This document shows positions 1,488 to 22,875 of a DNA stretch of 22,875 bases, in pieces; position 1 is the stretch's first letter; each line of letters opens with the position of its first letter. Source of the stretch: a virus. The stretch lies in IMG/VR virus record IMGVR_UViG_3300037189_030636, positions 1 to 22,875 of that record. One strand, 5' to 3'. The position numbers were made by a program, and so were the translations under genes. The notes under the pieces are model-generated. The model was not told the origin of the DNA. It saw only the letters and a list, made by a program, of their open reading frames with translations, and did no database searches.

Positions 1488-1928
1488 TTATTCATCTCGG
1501 TGGCGTGGATTAAATGGTGGTTCGTCGTCATCTACTGGGCGTGCCGCAACTGGCGCGGGACGAGTCATGGGTGGTCGTGGTGGAGGAGCAGCTGGTGTCA
1601 CGCTTGGTGGCAAGCCTGCGGGTGTTGGTGGTGTAACCGAAGTTCCAACCGTGGAAGCTCCGGCCACCTTTTCCTGAGTACGCCCCCAGGCAGCAATACC
1701 CAGAACAGCGCCCATGGCCAGATGGAATAATCCGGCACCCTGCAGAGTTAAAGGATTCCATTGTGTAACTGGCTGCTTCAAAACGGCCTGCAGAATGCTC
1801 CAGGCCACGGGAAATATAATCATGTCACAGAAACATACCAACATGTACATCCAACCCATGGCTGGACGCCATTTCTTTTGCATCCAATCTTCCTTGGGTG
1901 CTTCTTGTTTAACTTCTTGGTCTGCCAT
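1488..1928 (-). CDS. Small two-helix membrane protein, candidate holin (GTA_holin_3TM-like)
   Basis: A 146-residue protein. Residues 1-20 are charged. Two hydrophobic segments follow, at about 23-49 and 59-81, the first preceded by a KKWRP motif. They are joined by a short loop containing QPVTQWNPLTLQGAG. Residues 99-141 are very rich in proline, with an acidic DDDE patch near the end. The W-P-LTLQGAG-FH-MGA pattern resembles small membrane proteins of aquatic phages usually called holins (GTA_holin_3TM family), which open the inner membrane for endolysin. That match is from memory. Its location inside a tail-assembly operon, between a chaperone-like gene and a tape-measure candidate, also allows a tail-associated membrane role. 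The start is fixed by a strong GGAAGGGG Shine-Dalgarno 7 nt upstream. Confidence 0.6.
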   Translation of the reverse strand: MADQEVKQEAPKEDWMQKKWRPAMGWMYMLVCFCDMIIFPVAWSILQAVLKQPVTQWNPLTLQGAGLFHLAMGAVLGIAAWGRTQEKVAGASTVGTSVTPPTPAGLPPSVTPAAPPPRPPMTRPAPVAARPVDDDEPPFNPRHRDE

Positions 1929-1931
1929 TTT

Positions 1932-2815
1932 TTATCCCCTTCCGGCGTTTTGTTCCTGTATTTTTTGTTTTTCTAATTCTAAATAACGAACAAGCAGAGT
2001 GACATAGATCTCCCTTTCCCACGGCATCATATTTTCTAATTCTGATAAACTATACTTATGATACTGCATCAGATTAAAATTGGTCTGATAATAGTTTAAC
2101 AGACTTTCATGGGAAAGGATTAACCGAAAAAACTCTGTATACCTTCCAATGTTACCTCATTGTGTTTACTGCATTCCTTGCAATCCCACACCATTTTATG
2201 GCGCAGCACCGGCATGGTAGCAAAGAAACGTTCAATCTTTTCCAGATTGGGTGGTGTCATGCTTTCAACAAAGGCCACCATTTCAGCCACAGTATGATCG
2301 GCGGCCGCATACATTTCGTCGCCCTGCCAGATGGTGTCAATGCTGCGAGCAATTAATTTGATGATACCATCTACATCCCTGGCGGCCAATAGTTCATCGA
2401 CTTCACGCAAATATGGATAGCGCATCTTCAGAGTAATGTTGTTGTCCAGTTCTATGGTGTCTTTATGACCTTCGGTCTTTTCAACCTTGACTTTGGTGAC
2501 ATCTATGGATTCATCCTGCTTGACGCCACAGGGACAGGTCAGCACCAGTTCAACTTTTTCGCCAACACTGGCGGCTCTGATGTTCATGAACAGATATTCA
2601 ACATCGAAACTGGGCAGGTTTTCAGCATTGACCTTGCCAAAGGTGCAGGCATTGATGATACCTTCAATGGCATCATTTTGTTGGTTGGTTCCTTCTTGTG
2701 CTGCCATCAGCAGTTGCTTTTGTTCTTTGACCAAAAATGGACGAAATTTTACCGTTGTTCCATTGCTGGGTAACTCAATGGTTACAACTGGTGTATCAAA
2801 TACAGGTAAAGCCAT
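1932..2815 (-). CDS. Frameshift fusion of the gp26-like protein with a 64-residue extension (predicted -1 shift at 2126-2132)
   Basis: If ribosomes slip back one base at T TTT TTC (2132-2126), reading continues from CGG at 2126-2124 through 64 codons to TAA at 1934-1932. The fusion is 294 residues: 230 of the gp26-like protein plus the extension. The extension is helical and charged, with a central motif SLSELENMMPWEREIYVTLL and a Lys/Glu/Gln-rich tail. It has no credible start of its own: no ATG, GTG or TTG sits at a usable distance from the GGAAGG upstream, and the first in-frame ATG is 19 codons in and lacks a Shine-Dalgarno. The layout (short product, low-level longer product, then a tape-measure candidate) copies the G/GT tail-chaperone arrangement of lambda, and the extension would be the T-like domain that contacts the tape measure. 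The frame geometry is read directly; the shift itself and its function are inference. Confidence 0.7.
1936..1943 (-). promoter_or_regulatory. Strong ribosome-binding site for the holin-like gene
   Basis: Minus-strand GGAAGGGG lies 7 nt before the ATG at 1928 and fixes that start. It overlaps the last codons of the frameshift extension of the upstream gene, so ribosomes finishing the extension end 3 nt before this ATG. Confidence 0.75.
2083..2104 (-). other. Weak hairpin downstream of the slippery site
   Basis: On the minus strand GTCTG (2104-2100) can pair with CAGAC (2087-2083) across a 12-nt loop. It starts 21 nt after the heptamer, farther than the usual 5-9 nt, and has only 5 pairs, so a stimulatory role is doubtful. 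Confidence 0.25.
2120..2815 (-). CDS. 26: gp26-like baseplate hub / tail-assembly protein (T4_baseplate family)
   Basis: A 231-residue protein, close to T4 gp26 (about 208). The opening MALPVFDTPV, the central KFRPFLVKEQK segment, and the paired cysteine motifs C94-x-C96 and C212-x-x-C215 fit the T4_baseplate family (PF12322, gp26/gp51), which acts in assembly of the baseplate hub. The four cysteines could bind a zinc ion as a ribbon. The start at 2815 is set by AAGGAG 8 nt upstream and lies 25 nt after the preceding gene. The C-terminus ends in QSFFG just where a -1 slippery heptamer occurs, so this is probably the abundant, unshifted product of a two-product gene. Family assignment is from remembered sequence features, not a search. 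Confidence 0.75.
   Translation of the reverse strand: MALPVFDTPVVTIELPSNGTTVKFRPFLVKEQKQLLMAAQEGTNQQNDAIEGIINACTFGKVNAENLPSFDVEYLFMNIRAASVGEKVELVLTCPCGVKQDESIDVTKVKVEKTEGHKDTIELDNNITLKMRYPYLREVDELLAARDVDGIIKLIARSIDTIWQGDEMYAAADHTVAEMVAFVESMTPPNLEKIERFFATMPVLRHKMVWDCKECSKHNEVTLEGIQSFFG
2126..2147 (-). promoter_or_regulatory. Programmed -1 frameshift signal: GGAAGG, 9-nt spacer, T TTT TTC
   Basis: Minus strand: GGAAGG (2147-2142), a 9-nt spacer, then TTTTTTC (2132-2126) in phase with the gp26-like frame as T TTT TTC. Both tRNAs can re-pair one base back as TTT TTT. The zero frame reaches GGT TAA immediately afterwards, while the -1 frame stays open for 64 codons. A Shine-Dalgarno-like element about 10 nt upstream of the slip site is the known enhancer of -1 shifting in E. 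coli dnaX. Confidence 0.75.
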
Positions 2816-2840: not shown

Positions 2841-3530
2841 TCAAGCTCCAAAGAAGCTATTGGTTTCAAAACTCATTGGGTCATCCATTGTACCGCCCAG
2901 CGGCGTACTCTGTCCCAGATAATCAACCTTGCGATTATCCTTGACCGGTTTGGGATCAGGTTTGTGTGTAATCGTGGGCTTGGGTGGCACCTCCTGCACA
3001 GCAGTGGTGATTGCTTCCCATTTCTTATAGGTAAAGGTGACATTTAAACGACTCACACCCATGCTACCCTGGTCCAGCTGCACTGGATTCACAGATATGG
3101 GATAGGCATCTATTAGTCTGACTGCATAGCTTACCTTGTCCTGTTCGTCCAGCTGAGCAATTTCAATTTTGGATATGTAGTTTGAATAATAATAGGCCAG
3201 ATTGGTGTTTCTATCAATGACACCGTCGATCCATCGATCAAAAAATCGCTTGACTTCCATGCTGCGATCCAGATAAAAATTGATGGAAATATTGTCGCCG
3301 CCATATTCGGCAAAGTGTGGCAGGTATCGTGGCGGGCCAAACATACGCAGAGGTGTTACATTGACTCGCGTCTGTGGTAACTGTGTTCCTTCGGCGAACA
3401 AACTGCTGAGTTTTTCTATACCGCCGCCCAAAAAGCTAGGAGCATAGACTGCAACTTCAAAACGATGTGCCTTGGCCATGCCACGATTCAGCACTTCTTC
3501 TCTGAAGTTTTCTAATTTAAAGTAAGACAT
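2841..3530 (-). CDS. Tail-tube-fold baseplate protein, gp54-like tube initiator (or gp19 tube protein)
   Basis: From the ATG at 3530 the product has 229 residues. A longer reading from 3617 is open, but the inner start overlaps the preceding stop as TAATG and begins with the conserved-looking MSYFKLENFREEV, so it is preferred. The middle of the protein has the tube-family pattern: GTQLPQTRVNVTPLRMFG, then YGGDNISINFYLDRSMEVKR, KIEIAQLDEQDKVSY, the DAYPISVNP turn and a final VTFTYKKW strand. In T4, gp19 forms the tube and gp54 starts it on the baseplate. Length, the LENFREEV start and the neighbouring baseplate genes favour gp54. About 50 residues follow the fold as a Pro/Lys-rich tail (PPKPTITHKPDPKPVKD), absent from a plain gp19. 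Choice between gp54 and gp19 is uncertain. Confidence 0.7.
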   Translation of the reverse strand: MSYFKLENFREEVLNRGMAKAHRFEVAVYAPSFLGGGIEKLSSLFAEGTQLPQTRVNVTPLRMFGPPRYLPHFAEYGGDNISINFYLDRSMEVKRFFDRWIDGVIDRNTNLAYYYSNYISKIEIAQLDEQDKVSYAVRLIDAYPISVNPVQLDQGSMGVSRLNVTFTYKKWEAITTAVQEVPPKPTITHKPDPKPVKDNRKVDYLGQSTPLGGTMDDPMSFETNSFFGA

Positions 3531-4105
3531 TAGTAATGTTTCCTTGATTGTCTCCAGACAGTTTCCTTGGAAGCGTTCTGAAATTGTTCTATGGGCAGCA
3601 TGGACGCACTCAACCAATCATCCGAGGGTATTAGTAAAAATCTGCTGCGTAAATGTCCAGTGAGGTAGTGTTTGACGCAAGCCCCAACACCGGGAAATTT
3701 AGCTCCAGAGTTCAACAACTGCCAGCTGAATAGTTGTTGTTTTGTTTCGTCGGCAGTCTTGTGCTTGACTTCTAATAAAGCGCCCATTAATTTAAAACGC
3801 AAACCATAGGGCAGATAATGCAGATTGATGCCTAAAAATCCGCCAGGGACTGTTCTAAAGGGCAACACCAGCGGCATGGCATCCCAGTAGGGCAGATCGT
3901 CTTTGTGCTTGGCGTCGTATTGAAACAGGTATAGTTCGCCGGGTTTGATTCTGCTCTTGAGATTGCCGGCTTTGCCACTCAGTAATCCATTGACTGACCC
4001 CTGCACATTGCGCAGTTGTTTGACCTGACTCTGATACCAGGTCAGGCTTTTCTTGCTGTTACCGGCATTGAGAGTAACGTTGTGAAATGGATTGGTGGTT
4101 GCCAT
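3530..4105 (-). CDS. gp2-like protein, putative DNA end protector
   Basis: 191 residues from the ATG at 4105. An in-frame ATG at 4186 would add 27 residues but lies inside the gp4-like gene, so the inner start, 4 nt after the gp4 stop, is preferred. Recognisable blocks are SLTWYQSQVKQL, GELYLFQYDAKHKDDLPYWD followed by PLVLPF, GFLGINLHYLPYGLR and CVKHYLTGHLRSRFL. I associate this pattern with proteins called DNA end protector (T4 gp2) in aquatic T4-like phages; gp2 shields packaged DNA ends from host RecBCD and lies next to gene 4 in T4 as well. The assignment is from memory and adjacency, and the alternative is an unnamed virion protein. It overlaps the next gene by one base (TAATG). A late-promoter-like box covers the end of the gene before it. 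Confidence 0.55.
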   Translation of the reverse strand: MATTNPFHNVTLNAGNSKKSLTWYQSQVKQLRNVQGSVNGLLSGKAGNLKSRIKPGELYLFQYDAKHKDDLPYWDAMPLVLPFRTVPGGFLGINLHYLPYGLRFKLMGALLEVKHKTADETKQQLFSWQLLNSGAKFPGVGACVKHYLTGHLRSRFLLIPSDDWLSASMLPIEQFQNASKETVWRQSRKHY

Positions 4106-6203: not shown

Positions 6204-7498
6204 CGGCTGAAGTTCAAACACCGGGCGAGGTACAGATTGTCGATGTCTTGCTTAGCAAGAACGCTGGCACCAAACAAATAAACCTGGTACTCTTTACAGT
6301 TGAGATCAACATCTATGAAGATATCATGCGCAACGGCATGTATGGTACCATACTGATTGCTGATGCTGCCAACATTGCTGGACTGTTTCCCATTACTGGC
6401 GCCGAGATGTTGAAGATAGCCTTCAAGACTCCGGGCATGGAAGAAGGATTCAACGATGAGTTTCAAGTCTACAGCATATCCGACAAGATCATGCTCAAGG
6501 ATACTGGCACACAGGGCTACATTCTACACTTTGTTATTCCCGAATTAATGACTGATGTGCAGACTCCGGTATGGGGTACCTGGAGTGGTTATCCGTTGGG
6601 AATTGCCGACATGATTTTTAAAACTTATTTTTCCGACAAAAAAACGCTGAATCGCATTGGTGCTGATGCTGCAGAAGTAACCTTTACCAGCCCTGGCTGG
6701 CGTCCCAGCAAGGCCATCAACTGGCTGGCATCACGCAGCGTTCCTTTTGGACAAGGCGATTTGCCAGGAGCCTTGTTTTTCCAGAGCAGTAAAAGCTATC
6801 ATCTGGTCAACTACAGTACTTTATTGAGATCCAGTGCTGATTTTGGCGAATATACATATATACCAGCCAACCTATCAGGCACAACCGATGGCAATTTTGT
6901 CAAGGATGTGCAGGCAGAATACTTTAAAATTGAAAACATGGAAGTTAAAGAAACCTACAATGGGTTGAAAAATCTGCACAGTGGATTTTACGCCAATCGT
7001 TTATTGACTCTGGATATCATGAAAAAGTCCTATGAAGTCACAGAATATGATCATATTTCCAGTTTCCAAAGCCGACCAAAATTGAATCCTTTTCCTTCCT
7101 ATCCAGATATCCTGAACAGAAACCCTGCAACTGTGTTGACAGTATATCCTCAGTTATCTGACATGTATGGCAAACCCGGAGAAAGACCACCCGGTGTTAG
7201 CATGACCGTCAAAGGTAGTCTGGGTGCAGGTCGTATCAGCGCCATTCTAGAGCTGGATAATTTTAAAATTGAAATTACTGTACCAGGGCGCACCGATATT
7301 GAAGTGGGTCGCACCATTAAACTATATGTTCCAGATTCATCGCCGCGAGATGAGGGCGATACTTCGGACCGCAGAGAAGATAAGGTATATTCGGGACGTT
7401 ATCTTATTACAGCAATACGACATAAATTGACATTGCAGAAGCACATGATGATCATGGAAATTGTCAAAGAAAGCACCTTACAGGATTACAATAAATGA
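6200..7498 (+). CDS. 27: Baseplate hub protein, gp27-like
   Basis: 432 residues, near T4 gp27 (391). Visible segments are QINLVLFTVEINIYEDIMRN and YGTILIADAANI in the first tube-like domain, then ISDKIMLKDTGTQGYILHFV. Near the C-terminus are GRTIKLYVPDSSPRDEG and YSGRYLITAIRHKL. gp27 is the trimeric hub ring that links the tube to the gp5 spike. The position directly before gp5, with a 4-nt overlap at each end (ATGA), matches that role. Identification combines context and remembered family pattern; a gp44-like hub of another myophage type is the alternative name for the same role. Confidence 0.75.
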   Translation: MTAEVQTPGEVQIVDVLLSKNAGTKQINLVLFTVEINIYEDIMRNGMYGTILIADAANIAGLFPITGAEMLKIAFKTPGMEEGFNDEFQVYSISDKIMLKDTGTQGYILHFVIPELMTDVQTPVWGTWSGYPLGIADMIFKTYFSDKKTLNRIGADAAEVTFTSPGWRPSKAINWLASRSVPFGQGDLPGALFFQSSKSYHLVNYSTLLRSSADFGEYTYIPANLSGTTDGNFVKDVQAEYFKIENMEVKETYNGLKNLHSGFYANRLLTLDIMKKSYEVTEYDHISSFQSRPKLNPFPSYPDILNRNPATVLTVYPQLSDMYGKPGERPPGVSMTVKGSLGAGRISAILELDNFKIEITVPGRTDIEVGRTIKLYVPDSSPRDEGDTSDRREDKVYSGRYLITAIRHKLTLQKHMMIMEIVKESTLQDYNK

Positions 7499-10302
7499 AT
7501 TTAGATAATATTTTTGCCAAAGACGGATTCTTCTGGTGGATCGGCGTTGTTGAAGATCGTGAAGATCCCATGAAAATTGGACGCTGCCGAGTACGTATTT
7601 TTGGCTATCATCAGCCAGTTATTCCCAAGGAAGACCTGCCCTGGGCCATGCCCATGCAATCTATTACCAGTGCTGCCATTGGTGGCAAAGGGTCCTCACC
7701 AGTTGGACCCCTGGAAGGAACCTGGGTCATTGGCTTCTTCTTGGATGGTGCCAACTGTCAGAATCCCTGCATGATGGGAACCATTGGTGGTCTGCCCAAA
7801 GCTCCTCCAGCCGGCGGCGTAAGACAGGGAGATACCACTGGTACTGGTGTTGTTACCGACGGCGAAGGCAACCCAATCAAGGATGCCAATGGTGACCCCA
7901 TTACACAAAATGAAGACACCACCACACAGCCTTCTAATACAGGAACCAACTTTCAAATTTTTATTGCTGAATGTAAAAAGCTGGGATTGACCGATCCCAA
8001 GTTCCTGGCGGCCGCAGTTGGCAATGTCTACAAAGAATGTCAGTTCAATCCCCGAGCACCTGAAGATTTAAAAGGCTATGCAAATACTGCTAAAAAAGCT
8101 CTGGTCAATGGTAAAACTGGTCCAGATTATATCAGATCAGTATTTGGTTCCCGTGTATCCAGATTCAGTGATGCAGAAATTATTGCATTGACTGCCGATG
8201 AACGCAAATGGGGCGATGTGGTGTATGGATATCAGACCGAAATCGGACGCGGCATGCAGAACACAGAACCCGGCGACGGATTTAAATATCGGGGCCGCGG
8301 ATTTATTCAATTGACTGGCAAGAAAAACTACAGAGAAATTGGTGCCATCATTGGTGTTGATCTGGTCAACAATCCTGACAAAGCCAATGACCCACAGATT
8401 GCTGCGCGGGCAGCGGCCGCATATTTTAAACGCGCAGCTGGTAGCACTTATATACAGTCACAGACCGGCGTTAAGTTTCCAGGCGCAACACAGGCCGATG
8501 CCGATCTCTGGGCCACATCAGCAGTTGCTGGCAGCGACATTAGAAAAAAAGGCGACATTGGTAAAACAATTTTAGATAAAGTCAATGGTTATTCTGCCAA
8601 GTATGTTCCGGGTACGGCAGGCGGCAAAGAAATTGCCCAGATTGGAGAACAGCTGTCTCCTCCCCCAAGTCAGGTGGCTGCAAAAAATCAACCCGATCCA
8701 AATACAACCAAGTCAACCGATAAACTAAACAATCCGACTCTGGGCAAGCCCACTGCCTACAGTGATCCCAACAATGCCTACCCCGCAGCCAATTATGAGA
8801 ATCGTAAAGTTGGCGGCGATACCAATAAATTAGCCACTGGTGGCCAGGAAGCTCGCGAGACTCCGGTACTGGTGGCAAAAAATGACAAACGTCTAACCAA
8901 TATCCTGGCTGGCAATCCCGATGAGTGGGATGAACCAGAAAGTGCCTATTGTGCCAAGTATCCCTATAACCATATGATTGAGACCGAAAGTGGTCACATA
9001 CTGGAAATGGATGATACGCCGCAGAGAGAAAGACTTCACTTATATCATCGCGCCGGCACCTTCTTTGAGATTGACCAATTTGGCAGCATGCATGAACACA
9101 TACAGGGGGATTACCACGGCGTGTTTGTGCGCAACAACAAGGTATACATTCGCGGTGGCTATGATGTAACTGTGGAAAAAGCCACGCGCATCCTGGCCAA
9201 GGATGCCCTGCAGATTATCAGCTATGGCGCAACCAAGATTGATATTCGCAACGATGCCACTGTCAATGTTCATGGCAAGGCCGACGTTAGTGTCACCGAA
9301 GACCTAAAGGTTCGTGGCAAAAATCTCTACATGGAATCGGAAAACGATATTCATATCAAGGCCGGTGGCTCGTTGTTCATGGGCGCCAATGATGTTCATA
9401 TACGAGGTAGCGGTTCAGTAAATCTCGACGGCGGAACCACAGACATCAACAGCGGCAGTGCAGGATCACCCTCGGGCACCGGATTATCAGCTCCAGCCGA
9501 TCGTCGCAGTCCTCCGGGCGATGGCAGATTTGAAGATTTAAAGCGTCCAGGATGCGATCCAGATTCGGAATTCAAAGGCAACAACGATGCTGGCGAGGCG
9601 CCTCCGGGTGCTGGTATTGCTGCTGGTGTACAAACTCAGGAAGATGCGAATACCAGCAAGGCCAAGCAAGATGAAGGTTGCAAACGATCTGACCTAAACA
9701 AGCCTAGCATTGTTGCGCCTACTCCCTATAAATTGGGTGAATTTGAGAGCTTCAAGGCCACGCCCTATACCATACAGTTAAGCAAGAGATTCAAGCTCGG
9801 TGATGTGGCTCACGTTGGTAGCGAAAGCGCTGCCCTGAACAAAGAATTCTGGAGCAATGCCAATCAGACAACACACCCTGGCTGCGGCCTAAGCAAGTCA
9901 CAGATTTTAGACAATCTGCGAGGCTTGTGTGTCAATGTCCTGGATCCTATCAAAGACAAATATCCGCAGATGATGATGACCAGTTGTCTGAGATTTGATG
10001 TACCGGCCGGCGGCGCGGCCAAATCACAGCATTTAACAGGTTGTGCGGTGGACATGCAGTTCGGCAGCGACCTGTCACAGCTATATGACATTGCACTCTG
10101 GATACGTGACAATGTTGCCTTTGATCAGCTATTGCTGGAATACTACAACGGCAAGGGCAAATATACTGGTTGGATTCACGTCAGTTTCAATCCCAAGGGC
10201 AATCGCCCTGCCGGTGGTGCCAAGGTTGGAACATTTATTGACCATCAGGTGGCCAAGGGTAAAGACGGCACACCAAAATGGTATTTGTGTGATTTGAGCT
10301 AA
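7495..10302 (+). CDS. 5: gp5-like central spike with GH19 muramidase/chitinase-type and M15 peptidase domains
   Basis: 935 residues, far longer than T4 gp5 (575). Domains in order: an OB-fold at about 1-105 (WWIGVVEDREDP, CRVRIFGYH, LPWAMPMQSI, GTWVIGFFLDG); a GH19-type glycosidase at about 153-370, with candidate catalytic E181 in YKECQFN and the hallmark KYRGRGFIQLTGKKNY at 264-279; a low-complexity linker at 371-480; a beta-helix needle at about 485-660 (SGHILEMDDT, then short repeating strands with DIRNDATVNVHG and DIHIKAGGS); a polar linker; and an M15_3-type zinc peptidase at about 740-935. Zinc ligands there are H846 and D853 in SQHLTGCAVD and H895 in WIHVS, with E882 as possible catalytic acid. 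The spike would pierce the outer membrane and open peptidoglycan during injection. T4 has a GH24 lysozyme in the slot of the GH19 domain and nothing after the needle. It overlaps gp27 by 4 nt. Confidence 0.85.
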   Translation: MNLDNIFAKDGFFWWIGVVEDREDPMKIGRCRVRIFGYHQPVIPKEDLPWAMPMQSITSAAIGGKGSSPVGPLEGTWVIGFFLDGANCQNPCMMGTIGGLPKAPPAGGVRQGDTTGTGVVTDGEGNPIKDANGDPITQNEDTTTQPSNTGTNFQIFIAECKKLGLTDPKFLAAAVGNVYKECQFNPRAPEDLKGYANTAKKALVNGKTGPDYIRSVFGSRVSRFSDAEIIALTADERKWGDVVYGYQTEIGRGMQNTEPGDGFKYRGRGFIQLTGKKNYREIGAIIGVDLVNNPDKANDPQIAARAAAAYFKRAAGSTYIQSQTGVKFPGATQADADLWATSAVAGSDIRKKGDIGKTILDKVNGYSAKYVPGTAGGKEIAQIGEQLSPPPSQVAAKNQPDPNTTKSTDKLNNPTLGKPTAYSDPNNAYPAANYENRKVGGDTNKLATGGQEARETPVLVAKNDKRLTNILAGNPDEWDEPESAYCAKYPYNHMIETESGHILEMDDTPQRERLHLYHRAGTFFEIDQFGSMHEHIQGDYHGVFVRNNKVYIRGGYDVTVEKATRILAKDALQIISYGATKIDIRNDATVNVHGKADVSVTEDLKVRGKNLYMESENDIHIKAGGSLFMGANDVHIRGSGSVNLDGGTTDINSGSAGSPSGTGLSAPADRRSPPGDGRFEDLKRPGCDPDSEFKGNNDAGEAPPGAGIAAGVQTQEDANTSKAKQDEGCKRSDLNKPSIVAPTPYKLGEFESFKATPYTIQLSKRFKLGDVAHVGSESAALNKEFWSNANQTTHPGCGLSKSQILDNLRGLCVNVLDPIKDKYPQMMMTSCLRFDVPAGGAAKSQHLTGCAVDMQFGSDLSQLYDIALWIRDNVAFDQLLLEYYNGKGKYTGWIHVSFNPKGNRPAGGAKVGTFIDHQVAKGKDGTPKWYLCDLS

Positions 10303-16994: not shown

Positions 16995-19900
16995 ATGGAT
17001 TTCAACCAATCGCCTTATTTTGACGACTTTGACGCACAAAAGAACTTTTACAAGGTTCTTTTCCGTCCAGGCGTTGCAGTTCAAACTCGCGAACTAAATC
17101 AACTACAGAGTATCCTTCAGGATCAGGTCACCAAATTTGGTACCAATATCTTTAAAGAGGGGTCCATGGTCATTCCTGGTAATATCAGGTACAATGACCG
17201 ATACAGCTACATCAAGTTGGCAGGCAAATCGCTGGGATCAAATTCTCTGTCCTATCTCGAAGGCAAAGAAATTTGTGCTGGCATCCTGGGCACTGGTGTT
17301 AAAGCCTATGTTATCAAGGCAGTTGTAGCTGAAAACAGCGATCCAGATACTCTGATTGTCATGTACACCAGTGGAGATGAAGCCCAATCAGCTGGCGGTG
17401 GCAAAGCCTTTACGCCAGGACAGACCCTATATGTTGTCGATGAATTAACTCTAAATGTAGTTCTACAAAACGGTCTAGACGCAATTGGACGTTCTGCACT
17501 GGCCAATATCCAGGAAGGCGTTTATTTTATCAATGGTTACTTTGTTTCTGTACCAGCACAGGATCTGGTAATTGAAAAGTATGTCAATGCAATCACTGAT
17601 ATTTCCTATAAAGCAGGGTTGCTTTACAGTGAGGCAGTAGTCACTGCCGAAGATGATGAAAGTTTGTATGATAATGCAAGCAGCACAACCAACTTTACTG
17701 CACCGGGTGCTCATCGTTACACCATTACAGCAGATTTTGTAAAATATGGTCTGGATGACACACCAGAAAACTTTTTTGAATTGCTGAGAATTGAATACGG
17801 TTCAGTTCAAAAGATAGTTCGAAACAGTCAATACAACATCCTTGAAGAAACTCTGGCTCGCCGTACCTATGACGAAAGCGGCAACTATGTTGTAGATCCA
17901 TTCCGACTGCAGGTGCGCGAACATCGCAAGAACAATCGCGGTGCTTGGTTAGGGGCAACCAAATATCGTGTTGGTGATTACATTGTGGTTGACGGCAGAT
18001 ATTTTGTCTGCATACATTCGGGCGAAAGTGCGGCGTCTCAGACAACAGCCTTTGCCACTGCCGACGAAACATCGTCTATTACAGATAATACTGTGACCTG
18101 GAGATATACAGTTGCTCCAAGAAGCAACAATGGTTTCTTGACACCAGAACAGGGCGGCAGCACCAGCAATCTGGTATTTGCTGTGACCGATGGCAAGGCC
18201 TATGTGCGTGGCCACGAAGTGGTTCGCGAAGAAACCTTTAACCTGGTTGTTCCTAAATCACGCTCAACCAGTGTAACTGTTTCCCGCACATTTCCAGTTA
18301 AAAATGGCAACTACATTATTTTGGATAGAAACGCAACCTGGGGCTTACCAGATATTTCATCTGGTCCCAAGGTAACACTCTATGATCGTAGTTTAGGTGA
18401 TTCAAGTTTGTCGCTGAAATTTGGTTTTGGTAATCCAGTTGGTACTGCCAGAATTAAGTACATTGACAGCGACTTCAGCGGCGGGTTGAAACTGGGCCTG
18501 TTTGATGCCACCATGGCACCAGGTCGCAGTCTGGATCGCGATGTCAACATGGTTGCCATCATTGATAGTTCAGCCTCTACCACTGCCAAGTCCTATAAAC
18601 TAAGCGGAACCTTCCGCTATACCGGCGGCACAGAAACCAGCAGTACACAAATCCAGGTTGATAACCGCTTTACCTTCGGCTCCATTGCAGCCGGTGGATC
18701 GGGCACATTGACCTCGGTTGGTACCATCTTTACCAAACAAATTACCAGTGGCGACACACTGACCTTTACCACTACTGGTAACACCCTGCAGACAGTTACG
18801 GTTGCCGTTGTTACCAATGACACATCAATTACCATCAAGAACATTGGTGCTACAACAATTAGCAATAGTTCAGGCCTGACCAGTGCCGCAGTTACACTGC
18901 CGGCATTCACAGTATTTGGAGCCACCAGTGCATCGGCTCTGTGCTATGAACTACGCGAAGGCGATACAGTATTCCTGAGCTCAGCCAGCAGCTATATTTC
19001 CGGTACAGTTACCAAGATCTTTACATTCCTAGATGTTCATGGCGACAGCAGAACGCGCATGACCATTAGTTCAACTGCAACAACCGCAGTTGGTACCAGT
19101 GGTACCGCAGCCAGAATGGACCTGTATGTTCAATATACTGGTCAGGCCGCCAGCTTTATTGGTAATATTCTGGGACAGTACAACGTTGGCGTCAATGCCA
19201 CCAAGTTGACTGGATTGTTTACACTCAAGGATGTAGATGGTACCAATACCATTGATCCAGCCCCACATCAGGCAGTGCGTATTTCAGCCACGGGCGCAGA
19301 CGCTCGTCTGCTAACCGAACAGTTGTATTTAAATGATTTGATTGATGTCAATGGATATCGTATCTACATCACACGCCGTTCAACCAATCAGGCAGCCTAT
19401 GGTATTTGTCTGGATCAGACAGTACCAACCACTGACACATCGTATCCAGCATTCCTGATTGAAAATAAAATCTATGATACTGGTGACGCACAACTTCTGT
19501 ACAAGGTTGTTGAGACTCCGGCAAATATCACCGACGATTATTATCGCATCTACAAACAAAATACTCAGTATTTGGCCACAGCCACCAGTGTGCTGCAAAT
19601 TGCTCTGGCTTCGGGTGTCAATTACAGTGAAATTGCCTGGAGCAATGCGCCCATTGATTATCTGATTGCTGTCAGCGACACAACGGCTTTGACTACACAG
19701 GCGCTGATTCGTGACATTGTAACCACACCCAGCAATATTACCATCAACCTATACAATGCCATCAGTGGCACAGTTAGAATTACCTACACAGTAGACCGCG
19801 ACGGCACTGCTGGTAACCTGGGTGGATTAAAAACCAAAACACTGACCTTTAATCAGTTACAGGAAGTATTGTCCAGTTCAGTGTCCCGACAAACTTCAAT

Positions 19901-22875
19901 TACCTTGGCCAAGGCCGATGTACTGCGCATCAACAAAATCCTAATGGCGCCAACCTTTGTTGCCAGCTGGACTGCTGCCACCACCCTGGCTGCTATTGAC
20001 GTAACCAGAAATTACGAATTAGACGACGGTCAAAGAGATTCATACTATGATTATGCTAAATTAAATCTGCTGAAAAATGCCCATCTGCCCCAGGGCTCGT
20101 TGCGAATCTACTACGATTATTTTGAACAAAGCGCCGGTGATTATTTCACCTTTCAGAGCTATAACAGCGATGAAGTTCCCTATGAAGATATCCCTGAATA
20201 CAAAGAATATAAACTACGAGATTATCTGGATTTCCGTCCACTGATTGGAACAACCAGTACCCTGACCAATATCAATGTACTGCGCTATGGCACAGATTTT
20301 ACCTGCAATACCAATCGTTATCTGGCTAGAATTGATACATTGGTCATTGATCAAAATGCCAGTATCTATCCAATTAGTTCAGTGCCTGCTATTTCTCCAG
20401 TAGAACCCAATGTACAAAGTGATTCCAATCTATTGGAATTATTTGATGTAAGCCTTACAAGTTTTACCGATAGTTCAGCTTGGCCAGATATTTCAGTCTC
20501 GGCCAAAGAACACAAACGTTATACCATGGCTGATATTGGCCGTCTAGAAACACGCATTGATAATATAGAAGAAATTGTTTCACTGACTTTATTGGAAGTG
20601 GCAACCAAGAGTTTACAGATTCGCGACAACAAGGATAGCACTCTGGAGCGTTACAAGACTGGTTTCTTTGTCGATGCATTCAATGATCAGACCAATGCTG
20701 GTGCGGATATTGACAATCGTTTCAGTATCAATCAGGCAGATCAGTCCATGCAGGCTCATATCAGCGGCTATTCATTGCCATTGTCGGAAAAGATTAACTT
20801 TACCAACTACAGCCCAACAGGCAATGCCGGCGGCGCAGAATTAACACCCATTGATTATGCTCGTAGTTTACAAAACTATCAGGTAACTGGTCAGGTGGTT
20901 AGTTTACCCTACACCACCAGTGTCATTGTAAAACAAACAATGGCAACCACCAGTGCTTCAGTTGCACCATTCATGGGTGTGAGCTTTATTGGAAGAATGA
21001 AAATTTATCCTGACAAAGACATCTACGAAGATATCTCAGTGATTAAAATTAACAAGAAAACCACCAAAGCAGATGCAGCCAGATTGAAGGCAGCGCAGGA
21101 ACTGGGACAACGTCTATATGGAAGTAACTATGTTATTCAGACTACAACCAAGTCTACAACCAAGGTTACCAATGTTGAAAAAACAATTATTCCCTATGCT
21201 CGTCCCAATACACTGGCAGTTGTAGTAACTGGTCTGTTGCCACAGACTAAATTTTATCCAACCATCGACGGCATTGATATTCGTCAATATTGCACTGGCG
21301 CCATGCGCATGCAAATGACACTTATTGATGTATTAAGATTTGGTAAAATTCGTCCAACGGTGGCCAGTGACTGGGCACGTTGGCGCAGTCTTGCCTATAG
21401 TTTTACCGACAAAAAACAAGTCAAGAAAAACAAGGGCGTTAAAGTTGGTGGCAAGTGGTATGTGTTTACACGTATTACCAAGAACCCCAAACAATACAAT
21501 GCAGTGTTACCAGATAAACGCAATGGTGACGCTATGCGCAAGGCATTCTCCACTGGCGTAAGCGTATATTATCGTGAAGGCAACAAATGGCGCGGCAGTG
21601 GTGTGGCCATGCATCAGGACGAAAATGTCCTGTACATTGCCAATCCGCGCGGTCGTCTGTCGCCGGAATTTATTCGTTCACAACCATCCAAGACCTACAG
21701 CTATTCAGGCAGATGGTACATTGGTAATGTCAGTGGTTACTTCACCGATCTGATTACTCAAAATCGTACCGACATTCAGGTTACCACAGATGACACAGAA
21801 GGAAATCTGTACAGTGACAGCAAAGGAAACCTGGTGTTCACTGTGGACTTCCCACAGGACGACAATCTGGAATTCTTCCATGGCATGAAAAAATTGGTGG
21901 TCAGTGATAGTCCAACTGACAACCAAGACGAATACATGAGCCGTGCTGAAGCATTCTATGAGGTTGAAGGCACCAAGGTGGTTATTACCAAGACAACGGT
22001 TACAACCAAGACCTTTAAAGTACTACCTCCACCACCACGTCCACGAGATCCATTGGCACAGAGCTTTAAACTGCCCGATGGTTATCCCAATGGTATTTTT
22101 GCCACTGGTGTAGACATCTACTTCCAGCAAACAACAACCACTGACGATAAGCCAGTTATGTTTGAGATTCGTGTATGTGATTCCACTGGACGTCCTGGGC
22201 CTGAACAGGTTCCAGGCAGCGAGATTTTTAAATATGCCAGTCAGTTAAATATTGACACAACATCTGGAGCAATATCAACTCTCTTTGAATTCAGTGAGCC
22301 TATACATCTTAAACCAGAAATTAGTTATGCCATAGTTTTACGCAGTGATGCACCTCAACACAAGGTGTGGATTGCAACCATTGCACAACCTGATGTGGCC
22401 AATCCACGCCTGGCCTATTCAACTCAGGCCACCTTGGGTAGCCTGTTTAGAAGTCAGGAAAATACACTGTGGACCGAAGATCAGTACAGCGACATGAAGT
22501 TCCGTGTACACCGCGCAGTATTTAACACCAGTGTAACCGGCGTTGTTCATCTGGTAAATCAGAACTTGCCAGCAACAGCATTGCCAAGCAACCCATTTAA
22601 CTTCATGCATGGCAGCGCTAAGGTTCGTGTAAACCATCCTAATCATGGGTTGCGCAATGGCGACTCCACCAGATTCTATAGTGCAGCCAAGGCCGCGGAA
22701 TATACAGTAAGTTCGGGTGCAACCCTGGCTGGTATTCCACTAACAGAAATTTTTGGTACATCATTGGCTGAGGATCAGACGTCAACCACAGATCCAGTAT
22801 TGCAGGTTGAAAGTTGTACCCTGGACCAATATGTCATTACTACAACCACGATTGCCAATCTGGGCGATGGGTCAA
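16995..22875 (+). CDS. Giant DUF4815 baseplate/fibre-network protein, gp10-like (runs off the right edge)
   Basis: The frame from the ATG at 16995 is open for at least 1960 codons to the window end, so the C-terminus is missing. The N-terminal 65 residues (FNQSPYFDDFDAQKNFYKVL, FRPGVAVQTRELNQLQ, VTKFGTNIFKEGSMVIPG) are typical of DUF4815, a family attached to the baseplate periphery of aquatic T4-like phages in the place of gp10. Residues around 530-720 look like Ser/Thr-rich beta insertions. A helical segment at about 1176-1212 (YTMADIGRLETRIDNIEEIV) and a PPPPRPRDPLAQSF junction near 1678-1691 are also characteristic. A late beta domain follows (GIFATGVDIYFQQ, PVMFEIRVCDSTGRPGPEQV). The likely role is to hold wedge tips and tail fibres and rearrange on host contact. 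AAGG lies 9 nt before the ATG. Unusually long even for this family. Confidence 0.75.
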   Translation, partial: MDFNQSPYFDDFDAQKNFYKVLFRPGVAVQTRELNQLQSILQDQVTKFGTNIFKEGSMVIPGNIRYNDRYSYIKLAGKSLGSNSLSYLEGKEICAGILGTGVKAYVIKAVVAENSDPDTLIVMYTSGDEAQSAGGGKAFTPGQTLYVVDELTLNVVLQNGLDAIGRSALANIQEGVYFINGYFVSVPAQDLVIEKYVNAITDISYKAGLLYSEAVVTAEDDESLYDNASSTTNFTAPGAHRYTITADFVKYGLDDTPENFFELLRIEYGSVQKIVRNSQYNILEETLARRTYDESGNYVVDPFRLQVREHRKNNRGAWLGATKYRVGDYIVVDGRYFVCIHSGESAASQTTAFATADETSSITDNTVTWRYTVAPRSNNGFLTPEQGGSTSNLVFAVTDGKAYVRGHEVVREETFNLVVPKSRSTSVTVSRTFPVKNGNYIILDRNATWGLPDISSGPKVTLYDRSLGDSSLSLKFGFGNPVGTARIKYIDSDFSGGLKLGLFDATMAPGRSLDRDVNMVAIIDSSASTTAKSYKLSGTFRYTGGTETSSTQIQVDNRFTFGSIAAGGSGTLTSVGTIFTKQITSGDTLTFTTTGNTLQTVTVAVVTNDTSITIKNIGATTISNSSGLTSAAVTLPAFTVFGATSASALCYELREGDTVFLSSASSYISGTVTKIFTFLDVHGDSRTRMTISSTATTAVGTSGTAARMDLYVQYTGQAASFIGNILGQYNVGVNATKLTGLFTLKDVDGTNTIDPAPHQAVRISATGADARLLTEQLYLNDLIDVNGYRIYITRRSTNQAAYGICLDQTVPTTDTSYPAFLIENKIYDTGDAQLLYKVVETPANITDDYYRIYKQNTQYLATATSVLQIALASGVNYSEIAWSNAPIDYLIAVSDTTALTTQALIRDIVTTPSNITINLYNAISGTVRITYTVDRDGTAGNLGGLKTKTLTFNQLQEVLSSSVSRQTSITLAKADVLRINKILMAPTFVASWTAATTLAAIDVTRNYELDDGQRDSYYDYAKLNLLKNAHLPQGSLRIYYDYFEQSAGDYFTFQSYNSDEVPYEDIPEYKEYKLRDYLDFRPLIGTTSTLTNINVLRYGTDFTCNTNRYLARIDTLVIDQNASIYPISSVPAISPVEPNVQSDSNLLELFDVSLTSFTDSSAWPDISVSAKEHKRYTMADIGRLETRIDNIEEIVSLTLLEVATKSLQIRDNKDSTLERYKTGFFVDAFNDQTNAGADIDNRFSINQADQSMQAHISGYSLPLSEKINFTNYSPTGNAGGAELTPIDYARSLQNYQVTGQVVSLPYTTSVIVKQTMATTSASVAPFMGVSFIGRMKIYPDKDIYEDISVIKINKKTTKADAARLKAAQELGQRLYGSNYVIQTTTKSTTKVTNVEKTIIPYARPNTLAVVVTGLLPQTKFYPTIDGIDIRQYCTGAMRMQMTLIDVLRFGKIRPTVASDWARWRSLAYSFTDKKQVKKNKGVKVGGKWYVFTRITKNPKQYNAVLPDKRNGDAMRKAFSTGVSVYYREGNKWRGSGVAMHQDENVLYIANPRGRLSPEFIRSQPSKTYSYSGRWYIGNVSGYFTDLITQNRTDIQVTTDDTEGNLYSDSKGNLVFTVDFPQDDNLEFFHGMKKLVVSDSPTDNQDEYMSRAEAFYEVEGTKVVITKTTVTTKTFKVLPPPPRPRDPLAQSFKLPDGYPNGIFATGVDIYFQQTTTTDDKPVMFEIRVCDSTGRPGPEQVPGSEIFKYASQLNIDTTSGAISTLFEFSEPIHLKPEISYAIVLRSDAPQHKVWIATIAQPDVANPRLAYSTQATLGSLFRSQENTLWTEDQYSDMKFRVHRAVFNTSVTGVVHLVNQNLPATALPSNPFNFMHGSAKVRVNHPNHGLRNGDSTRFYSAAKAAEYTVSSGATLAGIPLTEIFGTSLAEDQTSTTDPVLQVESCTLDQYVITTTTIANLGDGS

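Follow-up and report, generated by a model that had tools for sequence, protein, structure and literature searches.

The tail assembly chaperone of phage lambda is made in two forms, gpG and the -1-extended gpGT, from a position between the genes for the major tail protein and the tape measure: the short ORF has a slippery heptamer (G GGA AAG) at its 3' end, and the -1 frame is open. Phage P2, whose tail is contractile, makes E and E+E' by a -1 shift too, on T TTT TTG, and shares with lambda the gene order of tail tube, chaperone and tape measure. In Escherichia coli, the dnaX cassette is composed of an SD-like element about 10 nt 5' of the heptamer (A AAA AAG), the heptamer itself and a downstream hairpin, and the new frame ends at once.

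A further case comes from the Vandenendeviridae and Andersonviridae, a different phage lineage from the one treated here, in which a -1 shift takes place on GTTTTT at the end of TAC-N and the -1 ORF was once annotated as a separate gene (PMC12846349). For T4, PMC3004832 counts gp26 and gp51 among the chaperones of hub assembly and states that the virion lacks gp51. Vladimirov, Gautam and Davidson (Virology 2022;566:9-15) identified tail assembly chaperone genes in T4-like phages, as reported by two papers that cite them: one states that, in place of frameshifting, 'some T4-like phages' have two genes, one short and the other a long fusion (PMC10885494), and the other, from 2025, describes poly-T -1 signals in TAC-N genes of T4-like phages (PMC12846349). 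On the word of these citing papers, the T4-like chaperone genes and their poly-T signals are prior art, the core idea followed here is largely already published, and the original prediction was wrong to hold that no case had been described in the gp26/gp51 family. What is new here is the breadth of the sampling, the tests for selection on the slip site, the SD-like element and the downstream structure, and a correction of annotation.

Slip site and reading frames in the window and its relatives

The window, that is, the whole stretch of 22,875 bases analysed here, is a virus record that is itself a fragment. On its minus strand lies a gp26-like gene (2120-2815) whose zero-frame product of 231 aa, the predicted short form, matches PF12322 (T4_baseplate) with E=3.6e-62, above the curated cut-off, and phrog_150 with E=8e-68. 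The gene ends in ...TTG GAA GGT ATA CAG AGT TTT TTC GGT TAA, which holds a candidate SD-like stimulator, GGAAGG (2142-2147), then after a gap of 9 nt the heptamer T TTT TTC (2126-2132), and finally the zero-frame stop TAA (2120-2122). A ribosome slipping by -1 would continue with CGG TTA ATC ... GGA TAA (2126-1932, 64 codons plus the stop), and the 64-aa extension encoded there matches phrog_634, "baseplate hub assembly catalyst" ("gp51"), with E=1.5e-27; the C-terminal end of phrog_150 gives a weaker second match to it. There is no ATG, GTG or TTG through residue 10 of the extension, and the -1 frame has its first ATG at residue 20, within the conserved core. The original prediction had described all of these elements, namely the zero-frame end at the heptamer, GGAAGG 9 nt 5' of it, the open -1 frame of 64 codons down to 1932 and the lack of a usable start for it, and each was found where it had been placed. 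An Rfam scan of the window gave no match.

The locus thus shares with lambda G/GT both a short ORF whose 3' end holds a slippery heptamer and an open -1 frame; its T TTT TTC differs from the lambda G GGA AAG and belongs to the same class as the P2 heptamer. Like dnaX, the family to which the window belongs has an SD-like element, a heptamer and a downstream hairpin, although the shift would here add a domain of about 60 residues where dnaX terminates at once. Across the genes of the window, about 7,520 codons in all, T_TTT_TTN is in frame at this site alone, and a chance heptamer is rejected on this count and on the fixation of both T positions beyond codon usage (see below). A sequencing error or a pseudogene is likewise rejected, the architecture being identical in 209 loci.

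These loci, which comprise all those in which the end of gp26 is complete and sufficient sequence follows it, were gathered by a search with the extension alone (viral and genome contigs), a search with gp26 alone (viral contigs) and the addition of annotated phages; because the queries were the extension alone or gp26 alone, neither searched set was selected for the slip site. The first search had returned six close relatives with an identical heptamer and the same -1 protein. All 209 loci combine gp26, an in-frame T_TTT_TTN (TTTTTTC in 169, TTTTTTT in 30, TTTTTTA in nine and TTTTTTG in one) and, in the -1 frame, a gp51-like domain; no homologue among them lacks the heptamer or has a stop in the -1 frame, either of which the original prediction had named as evidence against itself. 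They include phages of Synechococcus and Prochlorococcus, Stenotrophomonas phage DLP6, Caulobacter phage Cr30, Rhizobium phage AF3, Aeromonas phage AsFcp_1, Vibrio phages (the KVP40-like phi-Grn1 and PC-Liy1, and D479) and Pseudomonas phages pf16 and Astolliot. T4, the RB49-like JSE and Acinetobacter phage 133 are without the frameshift architecture, since they have two separate genes. The arrangement is therefore universal among the sampled T4 relatives outside the T4 lineage itself, and a -1 frameshift in the gp26-like gene of the window is very probable. As an aside, the zero-frame stop directly adjoins the heptamer in S-CRM01, Astolliot and S-CREM2 (L018, L019 and L215; TTTTTTC TAA/TAG), where pausing at termination could aid the shift.

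Gene order and the proposed role of the two products

We consider it highly likely that, in a myophage of the T4 superfamily, the gene encodes the tail assembly chaperone in a short and a -1-shifted long form. Most ribosomes would end at the TAA and release the 231-aa gp26-like short form, while a minority would slip by -1 on T TTT TTC, aided by the SD-like element on the 5' side and, in many relatives, by an RNA stem-loop on the 3' side, to give a long form, some 294 aa in length, that ends in the gp51 domain and has the predicted junction peptide ...SFFRLILSHESLLNYYQ. If lambda gpG/gpGT is a guide, many short copies may coat the tape measure protein and a few long copies may recruit components of the tail tube or the hub. 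In the lineage of T4 and RB49, the same pair would come from two genes, with gp26 as the short form and gp51 as the long, in-frame fusion.

The neighbourhood is consistent with such a role. Directly upstream of the gp26-like gene, on the same minus strand, is a tail-tube-like gene (2841-3617; phrog_45 tail tube, E=6.7e-32), whose listed ORF opens with TTG at 3617; the phrog_45 match begins at residue 32, and the start is likely an internal ATG near 3530. Downstream, a large gene on the minus strand (1-1485) occupies the tape-measure position and runs off the window; it is assigned by position only, and no significant family match was found for it in the window. In relatives there is also a large gene downstream of gp26, and several of these match tape-measure PHROGs, some of them weakly. 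The original prediction of a tape-measure-like gene following the chaperone gene thus holds as to its presence (1485-1) but not as to immediate adjacency, for a holin-like gene lies between the two (1488-1928, minus strand; PF11351, E=1.9e-7). The order of tail tube, chaperone and tape measure would accordingly be that of lambda and P2 with one gene interposed; this gene encodes a protein with three TM segments, and the place is an odd one for a gene of the lysis type. Elsewhere in the window, a gp5-like hub/spike protein (7495-10302, plus strand) has a Gp5 OB domain, a GH19 chitinase domain and a weak C-terminal Peptidase M15 match below the cut-off, so that apparently two wall hydrolases are carried on one protein; and a very large DUF4815-containing protein of at least 1,960 aa, assigned to phrog_358, lies at the right edge (16995-22874, plus strand).

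The shift could be real and the pair could nevertheless serve the assembly of the baseplate hub only, with none of the tape-measure chaperoning seen in lambda. In T4, the genetic evidence associates gp26 and gp51 with the hub (PMC3004832), and searches by sequence and by fold uncovered no relation to known tail chaperones: hhalign against single lambda G/T and P2 E/E' sequences gave no signal, and Foldseek of the gp26 model against the PDB gave no significant hit, the HK97 chaperone 2ob9 at rank 10 with E=1.7 being no evidence. We regard this hub-only role as unlikely, given the location of the gp26-like gene between a tail tube gene and a tape-measure-like gene, the double annotation of T4 gp29 as a hub subunit and as a tail length protein, and the classing of gp26/gp51 genes as tail assembly chaperones by Vladimirov et al. 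(2022), as conveyed by the title of that paper and by those citing it. As no homology in sequence or fold to the lambda, P2 or HK97 chaperones was detected, the link to G/GT is one of function and position, and we do not claim that the gene belongs to the lambda family. The proposed union of T4 baseplate assembly genes with the G/GT mechanism is in this sense strongly supported for the production of a short and a long form, but not for common descent, for which hhalign and Foldseek found no sign.

The extension as a protein and selection on the slip site

The extension evolves as a protein: its dN/dS in the -1 frame is about 0.08 in related pairs, against 0.105 for the tail of gp26. AlphaFold models it as a confident helical domain, predicted to have three helices (pLDDT 86.7), and gives a confident fold for the gp26-like protein as well (88.9). 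A Foldseek search with the extension model against BFVD gave nothing significant, and a PDB sequence search gave no match. In T4, gp26 is made up of PF12322 alone, and gp51 continues beyond PF12322 for about 50 C-terminal residues, which align with the extension (hhalign, E=1.6e-6). The gp26 profile matches both proteins of T4, JSE and phage 133; the extension profile matches the C-terminus of gp51 in these three phages and no gp26. The window accordingly resembles the T4 gp26/gp51 family in both parts, a short form with PF12322 and a predicted long form with the gp51 C-terminal domain.

Public annotation suggests instead that this domain is translated on its own, through re-initiation or internal initiation immediately past the gp26 stop: cyanophage records place a CDS 2 nt beyond that stop, often with an ATG there. 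Among 192 representatives with less than 85% nucleotide identity, an ATG is within reach of the extension in 76 and only a GTG or TTG in a further 43; the remaining 73, the window included, have none of the three. The original prediction had counted a separate start in relatives against itself; many relatives have no start at all, and some have an ATG just past the stop. The heptamer is invariant where the ATG is variable, the frame is open from the heptamer on in every case, and T4 gp51 is an in-frame fusion of the gp26-like and extension domains, all of which makes separate initiation very improbable as the general explanation. In some cyanophages with an ATG directly past the stop, it could add a free gp51 domain to the products of the shift.

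The slip site and its stimulators are under selection. All 192 representatives have TTT as the first Phe codon (135 expected) and a T at the end of the codon before it (116 expected), the expected counts being drawn from each gene's own codon usage. Just 5' of the heptamer, pairing with the 16S tail exceeds that of synonymous recodings (-6.97 vs -5.29 kcal/mol; Wilcoxon p=5e-18), and the downstream RNA is more structured relative to such recodings than are control windows (mean z -1.37 vs -0.31; p=1.6e-14), where both p-values assume independent representatives, which is true in part only. In a conserved EG pair, the Glu codon is GAG in 99 of 143 cases against 37 expected, and control windows in gp26 have no comparable GAG or SD-like bias. 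The alignment of homologues called for by the original prediction thus finds the heptamer and the -1 extension kept in 209 of 209 loci and the SD-like element held by synonymous selection. The window itself is among the weaker cases, below many relatives on both stimulators: its SD-like element reads GGAAGG, with GAA as the Glu codon, where most relatives have GGAGG, and its downstream RNA (2070-2125, minus strand) is at the weak end of the family (z -1.0, fold z -1.1), as compared with fold z values of -2.8 to -6.7 in L001, P-SSM2 and S-PM2. Strong stem-loops are seen a few nt 3' of the heptamer in several relatives, at positions that differ by lineage (L001:2691-2746, L009:3215-3265, L010:3212-3262), and a stem-loop common to the entire family was not found, the hairpin position being lineage-specific. 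Transcriptional slippage on the run of six T (seven or more in a minority), in which one inserted U would give the same frame, is a highly improbable source of the -1 product, since the runs are mostly exactly six T followed by C (169 of 209), short for a polymerase, and the SD-like element and the RNA structure act on ribosomes.

T4 gp26 and gp51 and the meaning of the pair

Judged by their sequences, T4, JSE and phage 133 would obtain from two genes the same two products that we ascribe to frameshifting in the window: gp26 as the short form, and gp51, with its gp26-like domain and the extension in frame, as the long one. In this T4-lineage subtype the long form is a separate full-length gene, whereas that of the window needs the -1 frame, and no second PF12322 gene is present among the scanned genes of the window, which is a fragment. 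In a maximum-likelihood tree, T4-type gp26 and gp51 cluster together and apart from the frameshift-type genes (support 94/89). The simplest reading is a single duplication in the T4-type lineage that replaced the frameshift, a direction we infer from an unrooted tree. Probably, then, the T4 superfamily had an ancestral -1 cassette, made up of an SD-like element, T_TTT_TTN and a lineage-specific stem-loop, from which gp26 and gp26-gp51 were produced; its single loss, by duplication of the gene into gp26 and gp51, fell in the T4/RB49 lineage, the T4 'hub assembly catalyst' gp51 is the long chaperone form, and many cyanophage 'gp51' genes are not independent genes.

Current annotation does not reflect this arrangement. 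In none of the 19 annotated records with the frameshift architecture that were inspected are the two frames joined; 15 show all or part of the -1 ORF as a CDS of its own, and in four it is unannotated. PHROG 634 mixes such reading choices, as T4-like records (L008-L020, L212-L218) give the extension as a free gp51 or omit it; the family has 121 positions, and the extension aligns only from position 58.

The annotation of "gp51" as a free gene in many public cyanophage genomes is probably wrong. The proposed pair would account for the need of T4 for two related hub chaperones, one lineage obtaining the short and long products through a frameshift and another obtaining the same two through a duplicated gene. 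The conserved stimulators, moreover, offer a ready comparative set for measuring how the efficiency of the shift is tuned.
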